Source: a virus
Strand: one strand, 5' to 3'
Virus record (IMG/VR): IMGVR_UViG_3300031746_003173
Coordinates: 1-26,087 of that record
Length of the DNA stretch: 26,087 bases
Shown: positions 296 through 12,980 of the stretch, one piece after another
How positions within the stretch are numbered: the stretch's first letter is position 1
How the letters are laid out: each line of letters opens with the position of its first letter
Notes under the pieces: model-generated
Databases searched by the model: none
What the model saw: only the letters and a program-made list of their open reading frames with translations
What the model was told of the DNA's origin: nothing
Made by a program: the position numbers and the translations under genes

Positions 296-366
296 TGAGA
301 ACGGGGAATTACGATATCCCATTTGGAGATTGAAGGTCTCCTGTACTTCCTTTATACGACGCTCCC
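296..366 (-). tRNA. tRNA-Glu(UUC), degenerate T-arm
   Basis: Acceptor GGGAGCG/CGTTCTC (two G.U pairs), anticodon arm GGAGA-CCTTCAA-TCTCC (anticodon TTC). The T-arm GGGAT-ATCGTAA-TTCCC keeps the right length but has a non-consensus loop and one mismatch. Discriminator A. Confidence 0.8.
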
Positions 367-371
367 ATAAA

Positions 372-499
372 TCGGAGGCTAGGAGTTGAACCTAGTCGGG
401 CAGAACCGTATTAAACTGCCTGTGCCTTTTGTTTTTTGGTCGTCCAGTTCGGCTACTGGCATGCAGTGTTTTTGATGCGTTACCGTCACGCCTCCTCCG
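372..499 (-). ncRNA. tRNA-like RNA with an expanded centre (128 nt)
   Basis: The ends look like a tRNA: closing stem CGGAGG/CCTCCG, a D-arm-like hairpin GCGT-GACGGTA-ACGC right after the 5' strand, and a canonical T-arm CTAGG-TTCAACT-CCTAG before the 3' strand. Between D-arm and T-arm lie about 85 nt instead of about 22, with further hairpins (CCAGT-AGCCGA-ACTGG; GGCAG...CTGCC). I could not assign one anticodon arm. It may be a tRNA carrying an insertion or a tRNA-derived RNA of other function. Confidence 0.5.
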
Positions 500-506
500 C
501 TTACAG

Positions 507-1667: not shown

Positions 1668-2062
1668 TGGACGTGCGGACTTCGAAGTCCGGTCCTAGAA
1701 TTCTTGGTTCAAGTTTTTTCTCTCTGGCAAGAGTCACCTATTTATTTAGTCTGGTAATCTGACTTTCTCTTTTTAAGGGAGAGTCCCCTTTGGGGTGACA
1801 GGTAAACCCGCCATCCTCCACCATCCCTTTTAAGGTTAAAGGGAAACCGTTGCCCGGTTCGGGATTTAACTCCACGTTGTCCGGTCCACCACCCACTTTA
1901 AAGAGAAGCGGGAACTTTGTTAACTGGAAGGCTAAAGAGTTGTTCAGCCAGCGAAACGTTTGTTTTGCCCTCAAAGAGAGCATCAGCAAGTGTGTATTCA
2001 GCAGTTAATTTTTTGCCAGAACCTTTTAGCTTACTATCCTAGTCGATGCCAATGTCACGCCC
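1668..2062 (-). ncRNA. ssrA: tmRNA (transfer-messenger RNA), phage-encoded
   Basis: A complete 395-nt tmRNA. The 5' end GGGCGTG pairs with 3' CACGTCC (then discriminator A), including the G3.U70 pair that directs alanylation. The 5' part carries TGGCATCGAC, matching the conserved tmRNA TGGATTCGAC block at the expected distance. The 3' domain GGAC-CGGAC-TTCGAA-GTCCG matches the tmRNA T-arm region, with a 6-nt loop. Helix P2 can form between TAGGAT and ATTCTA. Between them lie the tag frame and about 200 nt able to form pseudoknots. CCA is not encoded. It rescues stalled ribosomes with SmpB in known systems; no smpB gene is visible here, so the host protein would be used. It sits 4 nt from tRNA-Lys(CUU), in the same array. 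Confidence 0.92.
1898..2002 (-). other. tmRNA tag reading frame (34 codons)
   Basis: The resume codon is placed at GCT (2002-2000) because it follows TTAACT, like the TATAACT before the Bacillus subtilis resume codon. The frame reads AEYTLADALFEGKTN, then 19 more residues ending VNKVPASL, and stops at TAA (1900-1898). The first eight residues, AEYTLADA, look like an ordinary short tag of the AxxxxLAA kind, but no stop follows there. The terminal SL is unlike the usual LAA degradation signal. The choice of resume codon is an inference. Confidence 0.6.
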
Positions 2063-3465: not shown

Positions 3466-3470
3466 ATTTG

Positions 3471-3542
3471 TACGCCCTAGCTGAGTCGAACAGCTATCCC
3501 ATGTGTGTAGAACATATGTAATTACCCTTATACCAAGGGCGT
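3471..3542 (-). tRNA. tRNA-Val(UAC)
   Basis: Perfect acceptor ACGCCCT/AGGGCGT, T-arm AGCTG-TTCGACT-CAGCT, anticodon arm TATGT-TCTACAC-ACATG giving TAC, with C in place of U33. Very similar to the tRNA at 3646-3717, which supports a valine pair. Confidence 0.82.
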
Positions 3543-11094: not shown

Positions 11095-11961
11095 TTATTT
11101 CCTTAAGTAATCTTTATAAATATCATTTCTATGTTCAATAACATATTGGGGCAGACTTAATATAGACGCTTCTACAAAATTAGTTGGTCTACCAAACAGG
11201 TCACGCCCACTCGTTAAAGCATCGTTCATACTATTTTCAATGTTGCTTTTAACCTCAGTAGTATTAAAATACCATTCGCTGAATGTTTCAATCTTGTGTT
11301 TGATTGCATCTTTCCCGCCTTGATATGAAAAATGCCAACCGCCATGATGTAGTGTTGGTCCACGCCTTCTCATTTTGAGTTCACAAAAAGATACCTTTTT
11401 GAAGTTCTCAAAAGAGAGTAATGTAGGACCTAATTCTTCATGGTCTTTTTCAACATTCATATAATAATAAAACTGGCGTAAATTAAAATTATAAATATCG
11501 TTATGGTCATAACTATCTAAAACAAATTTTACCGCTTCGGGGTCAGCAATTTCATCTAAATCTGATAATAAAAGCATATCGTCTGCTTCACAATTTTGCA
11601 AAGCTATATATACACTTTCTTTTTCAAAAGTATCTCTACCGTATGGTGCATGCTCATGCCCCCACCAATCACCAGCTAAAACTCTTTGAAGAATAAATTT
11701 TTCTGTATCATTCCTACCCATTTCAGGGGTTAGATTAACATAATCACTCGGCAAGTCAGTATTCATTTGATAAATAAGTTTTCCCCAAAATTTTTCAAAT
11801 CTTCCCCAATTATCTTTTAAATAAAAGGGTTTTGGTGTACCATCCCAATAGCAATCAGATTCTGTTACTATAAAATAATCTACTACAGGGTCTAGAGTAT
11901 TTAATCTTAAATCTAATATATCAAGTTCATTACAAAACTGTGTTGCGCTATAAACTTTCAT
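11095..11961 (-). CDS. GT17-like glycosyltransferase (288 aa)
   Basis: Resembles the beta-1,4-N-acetylglucosaminyltransferase family GT17. FCNELDILDLRLNTLDPVVD (9-28) is the characteristic N-terminal segment, SDLDEI (133-138) the metal-binding core, and GGWHFSYQGG (207-216) the late conserved motif. The first member of the family (MGAT3) adds bisecting GlcNAc in animals; many bacterial and viral members exist with unknown acceptors. GAGGAG lies 8 nt before the ATG, and the start touches the stop of the radical SAM gene (ATAATG). Soluble, cytoplasmic. Confidence 0.87.
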   Translation of the reverse strand: MKVYSATQFCNELDILDLRLNTLDPVVDYFIVTESDCYWDGTPKPFYLKDNWGRFEKFWGKLIYQMNTDLPSDYVNLTPEMGRNDTEKFILQRVLAGDWWGHEHAPYGRDTFEKESVYIALQNCEADDMLLLSDLDEIADPEAVKFVLDSYDHNDIYNFNLRQFYYYMNVEKDHEELGPTLLSFENFKKVSFCELKMRRRGPTLHHGGWHFSYQGGKDAIKHKIETFSEWYFNTTEVKSNIENSMNDALTSGRDLFGRPTNFVEASILSLPQYVIEHRNDIYKDYLRK

Positions 11962-12980
11962 TATACAAACTCCTCATGTAATATGGTTTTGTCTTTGGTC
12001 TCATTAAACAAGTCTAAACCAAAGTATTTAAAATCTTCCAACATTTTTATATTATTATGAAAAACACAACCTTCACAATCTTCATACGGAGTAAAATGCA
12101 TTTCTATATTTTTATCTAAAAACTCTAATATATCTTCTGCTCTACAGATTCTATATTTATCATGAAAAAATCTGTTCTGGTCGTTTAATACAATACTGTC
12201 ACATGGATATACTGTACCACCATCTACTTCACTTAAATAAGGTCTGAAATATGACTGATGGCAGGTCGCAATCTTTTGTGCGTGATGGTTTTTATATTGA
12301 TGGAAAAAGCCATAAAGAGACAAACCATATTTATCAAACACAACAGATATTCTCTCATGCTCTTTTTCAAGTGCTTGTGTAGGTAAAAGGCAATCTGGTA
12401 AAACTCTTATATATTTAGCACCTAATTTTTCTTTTAGCATAGCCAAATCTTCTATCTTATCTTCTAATTCTCCTGCGCCATCTATAAAGGACATTCCGAT
12501 AGTTGTTTTTTCCTTATTGATTTTATTTAAAGGTAATGAAATCTTTTCTTTCCAACCTTCAAAGAAATTAACACTTACTCTAACCCAAGTAAAGGCATCC
12601 CAATCTTCTACTGCTTTTGAATTTGTACCATTAGTAATCAAAGCTAAAGATAAACACTGGTCATATTTTAACCAATGCACTAACTCATTAAATTGTTTGT
12701 AAAAAGTAGGTTCCCCTCCTCCTGTTATAATAACAGCTTCTAAACCTCTTGTTGATAGTTTTTCTATATAATCTTTAATCACATCTAGCTTGATATGATT
12801 TGGTTTTCTAAGTTTAACAGAACAATATTCACAAGATAAGTTACATTTACTTGTTGGAGATATATGAGTAGATATAACTGTGCTAGGATTACCTGTTTTA
12901 TAATTATTCATCTGGTAAGGATGCTTCCAAAATTTAATACCTGTCGAAGTATAATTATCTGCTATTTCTTTATTTTCCAT
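11961..12980 (-). CDS. Radical SAM enzyme with SPASM-like C-terminus (339 aa)
   Basis: The CNLSCEYC motif (46-53) supplies the three cysteines of the SAM-binding 4Fe-4S cluster and TGGGEP (86-91) the SAM contact. Further cysteines at 240, 260, 279, 302 and 305 (CDSIV, EDCEGC) look like ligands of an auxiliary cluster, as in SPASM/twitch enzymes. Such enzymes modify peptides, cofactors or sugars by radical chemistry. Here it lies between GT17-like and GT11-like genes, so a radical modification of a sugar or of a glycosylated protein is the most likely job (inference). It is related to the second radical SAM protein at 16487-17422. Start overlaps the upstream gene by 11 nt. Confidence 0.9.
   Translation of the reverse strand: MENKEIADNYTSTGIKFWKHPYQMNNYKTGNPSTVISTHISPTSKCNLSCEYCSVKLRKPNHIKLDVIKDYIEKLSTRGLEAVIITGGGEPTFYKQFNELVHWLKYDQCLSLALITNGTNSKAVEDWDAFTWVRVSVNFFEGWKEKISLPLNKINKEKTTIGMSFIDGAGELEDKIEDLAMLKEKLGAKYIRVLPDCLLPTQALEKEHERISVVFDKYGLSLYGFFHQYKNHHAQKIATCHQSYFRPYLSEVDGGTVYPCDSIVLNDQNRFFHDKYRICRAEDILEFLDKNIEMHFTPYEDCEGCVFHNNIKMLEDFKYFGLDLFNETKDKTILHEEFV

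Follow-up and report, generated by a model that had tools for sequence, protein, structure and literature searches.

A probable one-piece tmRNA gene of the alanine type within the tRNA array of an IMG/VR virus record

The ssrA-encoded tmRNA of Escherichia coli combines an acceptor stem carrying the G3.U70 pair with a UGG..UCGAC block, the connector helix P2 and a stop codon placed in a hairpin after the tag. Stop codons of tmRNA tags commonly sit in P5, and the pseudoknots 3′ of the tag vary across the tmRNA family. In the E. coli molecule, A86 and U85 lie upstream of the resume codon, and A86 is nearly universal and essential (PMC2481249). tmRNAs are already known from phages, among them phage G, mycobacteriophages and many aquatic phages (PMC4131195; PMC9004378); ARAGORN reported them in 402 of 18,146 phage genomes (PMC9004378), and they account for 79 of 97,179 unique database sequences (PMC11915505).

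The DNA analyzed here, an IMG/VR virus record 26,087 bases long, is referred to below as the window. On its minus strand, tRNA genes are densely packed in an array within the first 4.1 kb, where ARAGORN called 15 tRNAs and Rfam one more (2138-2067). An initial annotation had placed a phage tmRNA of 395 nt inside this array, with the paired ends GGGCGTG/CACGTCC, the G3.U70 alanine signal, a TGGCATCGAC block and a tmRNA-like 3′ arm. All of these elements are present, and the gene runs on the minus strand (1668-2062, discriminator A at 1668 included). The 5′ strand of acceptor stem P1 (GGGCGUG, 2056-2062) and its 3′ strand (CACGUCC, 1669-1675) form seven of seven pairs, with G3.U70 as the alanine signal, and the copy of the gene on the IMG/VR contig L014 has the same stem. 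A conserved block of the UGG..UCGAC type, the equivalent of the D-arm (2042-2051), follows the 5′ acceptor strand and reads UGGCAUCGAC in the window and UGGCAAUCGAC in L014; an anticodon arm is lacking. Directly before the 3′ acceptor strand lies a T-arm (CGGAC-UUCGAA-GUCCG, 1676-1691) with a 5-bp stem and a UUCRA-type loop, UUCGAA, of six instead of seven nucleotides. CCA is encoded neither for the tmRNA nor for the tRNAs of the array. A permuted (two-piece) tmRNA was considered and rejected: the order of the pieces is ordinary, the 3′ acceptor piece not preceding the 5′ piece, and RF04321 reached only 10.6 bits, at another place. Judged from its sequence, the element read from 2062 to 1668 is a one-piece tmRNA gene of the alanine type, carried by a viral record within a tRNA array.

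The search with Rfam and ARAGORN proposed in the initial annotation gave a full-length match with agreeing ends, at scores under both default thresholds. The Rfam model RF00023 matched positions 1665-2062 of the minus strand with 31.1 bits (E 6.4e-10 in 4.5 kb), which lies below the curated cut-off of 47 bits, an operational rule and not a biological defining feature, and under that rule there is no Rfam call. We did not rely on the E-values of this model, because they are too generous: T-arm-only matches elsewhere, including those in control genomes, scored 11-20 bits and still received E-values of 1e-4 down to 1e-6. ARAGORN made no tmRNA call on the gene at its default setting; at 96% of the default threshold, c[1667,2062] was the sole tmRNA of the window, with exact acceptor ends and the label 'tmRNAp'. 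At 92%, the homologue (L014, 15024-15451) was likewise reported alone and with exact acceptor ends, whereas none of 100 randomized windows of the same composition gave a tmRNA at either 95% or 90%. The sub-threshold ARAGORN calls with their random controls are better evidence than the Rfam E-value, and independent of it. A motif combining elements of the tRNA-like domain, set up after the target had been seen and of imperfect sensitivity (it misses the tmRNA of contig L051), was run over 0.94 Mb of strand and matched only the window and contigs L014/L015; none of 300 randomized windows contained it. The idea of a viral tmRNA gene inside a tRNA array is thus borne out by RF00023, by sub-threshold ARAGORN and by the 16 surrounding tRNAs.

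The homologue was reached through a 138-residue neighboring protein, which led to the IMG/VR contigs L014 and L015; across the 2.2 kb that were compared, these two do not differ. The order tRNA-Asn, tRNA-Lys(CUU), tmRNA, tRNA-Lys(UUU)-like sequence, tRNA-Asp is common to the window and to L014/L015. In the window, a tRNA-Lys(CUU)-like gene (2067-2138; RF00005, 38.3 bits; anticodon assigned by eye) lies a few nucleotides upstream of the tmRNA, at the place where L014 has a tRNA-Lys(CUU), and is preceded by tRNA-Asn (2179-2254, ARAGORN), which opens the unit. A putative sigma-70-type promoter (2303-2275 on the minus strand; TTGACA-17-TATAAT, 12 of 12 positions, with a TG element) heads the unit of tRNA-Asn, tRNA-Lys and tmRNA, at a distance of about 20 nt from tRNA-Asn; the same hexamers lie upstream of tRNA-Asn in L014. 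A second perfect promoter of this kind (4298-4270) is found ahead of the whole array, and L014 has the same hexamers at the same places. As to the suggestion of the initial annotation that the phage copy could rescue ribosomes late in infection, when host tmRNA is limiting, the promoters point only to the ability of the host polymerase to transcribe the unit. No SmpB gene is present on these contigs, which are fragments; with CCA not encoded either, host SmpB, alanyl-tRNA synthetase (AlaRS) and nucleotidyltransferase would be needed.

We consider it highly probable that this is a viral one-piece tmRNA that is co-transcribed with tRNA-Asn and tRNA-Lys, charged with alanine by the host, and used with host SmpB to rescue ribosomes while adding a tag that ends in VPASL. 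Host RNA polymerase would transcribe the three genes together, and the tmRNA would be cut out of the transcript; a host enzyme would add CCA, and host AlaRS would recognize G3.U70 and attach alanine. With host SmpB, the tmRNA would then enter stalled ribosomes, replace the broken message and add a tag of 29-34 residues to the unfinished protein. Such rescue would be of value to a virus whose infection brings heavy transcription and mRNA decay. Processing, charging, use of SmpB and tagging are steps that we infer for the window tmRNA; the tRNA-like domain, the promoter and the gene order, together with a possible P2, a conserved frame that has a stop yet no start, and the compensation in hairpin B (see below), can be read from the DNA itself.

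Several further features of the array and its surroundings were recorded. Positions 3470-3542 (minus) encode a tRNA with the anticodon CUA (tRNA-Pyl according to ARAGORN), close in sequence to the neighboring tRNA-Val and likely an amber suppressor. Stop-codon recoding in the virus was considered and rejected: of the 32 genes in the window, five have TAG as their stop, and none continues for more than about 11 codons. Within 1193-2956 of L014, one gene ends in TAG and the next gene follows in frame three codons on, so that suppression of the amber codon would join both proteins into one; the arrangement may be due to chance. Directly 3′ of the tmRNA lies a stretch of about 77 nt (1590-1666, minus) whose ends form a perfect inverted repeat of 13 bp (TTTGATAGCTGGT/ACCAGCTATCAAA); L014 lacks it at the corresponding position, and it may be an insertion or an unusual tRNA-like element. 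An 11-codon mini-ORF behind AAGGAGG (MKRKARKQIGT at 1251-1286, minus; MKRKARKQSCN at about 15653-15688 in L014) sits between the tmRNA and the tRNA-Lys(UUU)-like sequence, in a stretch that is 94% conserved between the two viruses. That tRNA-Lys(UUU)-like sequence (1176-1249, minus) was missed by both ARAGORN and Rfam and has a T-loop of the type GGCAGUA, similar to the GGCAAUA loop of the tRNA-Lys at 2067-2138. Another possible tRNA, with an insertion, lies at 362-500 (minus); it has the ends GGAGGC..GCCUCC and a T-arm-like CTAGGTTCAACTCCTAG, and was called by no tool. Finally, a radical-SAM protein (11961-12980, minus) is 47.5% identical over its full length to that of Pelagibacter phage HTVC008M, a hint of an aquatic myophage.

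The predicted tag frame begins at the GCU codon at 2002, spans 34 codons (1901-2002), reads AEYTLADALFEGKTNVSLAEQLFSLPVNKVPASL and ends at a UAA stop codon (1898-1900). Resumption at a second GCU (1987-1985), the choice of ARAGORN, would use the same frame and the same stop and give 29 residues. L014 reads the same except that its tag ends in VSVSL instead of VPASL, neither being LAA, and the four changes in the frame are two silent and two coding ones; conservation with L014 ends just past the stop codon. The first candidate resume site (AAUUAACU followed by GCU) has A at position −4 and U at −5, as in E. coli. Since no ATG, GTG or TTG separates the resume codon from the preceding stop codon of its frame, ordinary initiation is unlikely. 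For L014, ARAGORN placed another tag within the diverged stretch, a proposal which we rejected because the frame from GCU 2002 is conserved. The most frequent length of tmRNA tags is ten residues (PMC11915505), compared with 29 or 34 here, and the ALAA ending of the E. coli tag, which is read by proteases (PMC3985003), is absent from the window tag. The tag has no Pfam match, and an AlphaFold model of the tag alone (two short helices, pLDDT 68) was too weak to use. The proposal that a phage copy could set its own tag gains support from this long, unusual and conserved frame. One may go further and suppose that the virus writes a long non-LAA tag so that rescued proteins escape the usual host degradation or meet another fate, and that the gene is a permuted tmRNA returned to one piece, a return suggested by the resemblance of its tRNA-like domain to that of permuted viral tmRNAs. 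We regard this combined reading as unlikely; that the window tag confers a fate different from that of an LAA tag is a guess, and the recycling of ribosomes would be the likelier and more certain benefit to the virus.

Within the RNA, connector helix P2 can form with six plus five pairs in both copies, the outer 5′ strand UAGGAU (2036-2041) pairing with 1696-1701 and the inner 5′ strand GGUUC (2019-2023) with 1706-1710. Hairpin A (1892-1912) is P5-like and holds the tag stop codon. Two possible H-type pseudoknots follow 3′ of the tag, AAGGG/CCCUU with CUCU/AGAG (1767-1790) and AGUC/GACU with UUACC/GGUGA (1734-1764). None of the pairs of P2 or of these pseudoknots varies between the two copies, so that the comparison, lacking covariation, neither supports nor weakens them. 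Folding of the whole RNA is better than that of shuffled sequences (z −3.0 and −2.6). The molecule thus allows P2 and pseudoknots, the folding whose failure would, according to the initial annotation, speak against a tmRNA; PK1 upstream of the tag, with a weak candidate of 4 + 4 pairs that competes with inner P2, is doubtful, and plastid tmRNA forms without PK1 exist (PMC3985003). The doubtful PK1 and the unusual 6-nt T-loop would fit an RNA whose tRNA-like domain acts as a decoy, binding SmpB, a synthetase or EF-Tu and preventing trans-translation in the host, its inner part being irrelevant; such a tRNA-like-domain-only RNA is known from mycobacteriophage DS6A and inhibits tmRNA (PMC4131195; PMC11915505). 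A decoy would require neither a tag frame kept up to its stop, with half of the changes in it silent, nor a canonical resume context, and we consider it a distinctly slim prospect next to a tmRNA that adds a tag.

The window and L014 genes are 83% identical overall, and this identity is unevenly spread: the 5′ part as far as the UAA of the tag, stop included, is about 97% identical, almost nothing is shared over about 100 columns just 3′ of that stop, and a closing stretch of some 120 columns again reaches almost 100%. In the diverged part, hairpin B (1824-1844), aligned by its flanks, keeps all seven of its pairs even though three of them have both bases replaced in L014, and we take these compensatory changes, which can be judged from the two sequences, as evidence for selection on the RNA. 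Sub-threshold scores and the label 'tmRNAp' might be expected of a decayed tmRNA copy, for instance of host DNA picked up with the tRNAs. Decay would, however, hardly leave tmRNA regions about 97-100% identical while the neighboring proteins of the two viruses are 73-76% identical, nor a changing hairpin B that stays paired, and we judge this origin to be very improbable. Least credible of all is that the locus is no tmRNA but a protein-coding stretch (an 83-aa ORF, 1738-1989, minus) or a wcaG-like structured RNA, since the ORF, although present in the window, has no Pfam match and in L014 meets a TAG soon after the diverged part starts, the wcaG (RF01761) matches, although found at the same place in both copies, score 23.6 (window) and 26.4 bits (L014) against a cut-off of 42, and neither accounts for the acceptor stem, P2 and the T-arm; the ORF was rejected as a gene. 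The weak wcaG matches (1809-1920, minus; 15194-15308 in L014) fall where the two sequences differ, and have in common a hairpin with a CUCU..UAAA loop followed by GUGGUG.

The family of this tmRNA comprises two distinct sequences, that of the window and that of L014/L015. The L014 copy itself has no RF00023 match even at E 10. Among scans with strict and looser 5′ patterns, one looser scan gave no true match and another only the L014/L015 contigs, and T-arm patterns added no further one-piece homologue. Tag-codon patterns run against viral and genome collections yielded no accepted relative, a match in Barnesiella (L030) being taken as chance, and a profile of the tag with its flank found none in genomes. 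A profile of the neighboring glycosyltransferase matched only the L014 contig and one sequence at 23%, and blastn and tblastn in phages and plasmids returned only tRNA-Leu or chance-like matches.

Divergent viral tmRNAs can thus fall just under the thresholds of both standard tools, and the census of phage tmRNAs may be low because such copies sit just below them. The conserved non-LAA tag of 29-34 residues makes it directly testable whether viruses alter the fate of rescued proteins or only regain ribosomes.

Bacillus phage G, run as a control, provides a close parallel: its tmRNA (JN638751, 412060-412371) is likewise viral, in one piece and located in a tRNA array, adjoins a stop-anticodon tRNA just as the window gene lies near one, and encodes a tag (AKLNITNNELQVA) also without an LAA ending. 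It scores 67.6 bits and is found by default ARAGORN, in contrast to the 31.1 bits and the missed default call in the window; its tag has 13 residues compared with 29-34, and no relation was detected beyond the tRNA-like domain. The mycobacteriophage tmRNAs (Bxz1 and others) and the RNA of DS6A, likened here by description, are also phage-borne (PMC4131195). With E. coli ssrA the window gene shares the G3.U70 acceptor, the UGG..UCGAC block, the A and U found at −4 and −5 of the resume codon and the stop codon in a hairpin after the tag, and P2 of E. coli has a possible counterpart in it; the E. coli gene differs by its clear PK1, its 7-nt T-loop and its ten-residue tag ANDENYALAA, the last residues of which are a protease signal (PMC3985003). 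The permuted viral tmRNAs (aquatic phages, Melnitz; PMC9004378) resemble the window gene in their 6-nt UUCGAA T-loop and their GUGAAAUGGGAUCGAC-like 5′ block, and differ in their two-piece order and in their tags of 10-14 residues (as read by ARAGORN), most of which end in LAA. Permuted two-piece genes were also observed in the IMG/VR contigs L019 (331-640, minus), L031, L034, L035, L045, L047, L049 and L050, several with a 6-nt T-loop, and the acceptor GGGCGUG/CACGUCC of the L019 gene is identical to that of the window. A scan that selected for the 6-nt loop and one acceptor type found UUCGAA T-loops in about twenty other viral contigs, all classifiable ones being permuted two-piece genes; the pattern was absent from 198 Bacteroidota genomes, a result for one acceptor pattern and one phylum that we do not use as proof. 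These sequence likenesses give a hint only that the tRNA-like domain of the window gene may be related to that of permuted tmRNAs. What sets the gene apart from the known systems is the combination of a non-LAA tag of 29-34 residues, a 6-nt T-loop found in these scans otherwise only in permuted viral tmRNAs, and the lack of a clear PK1.
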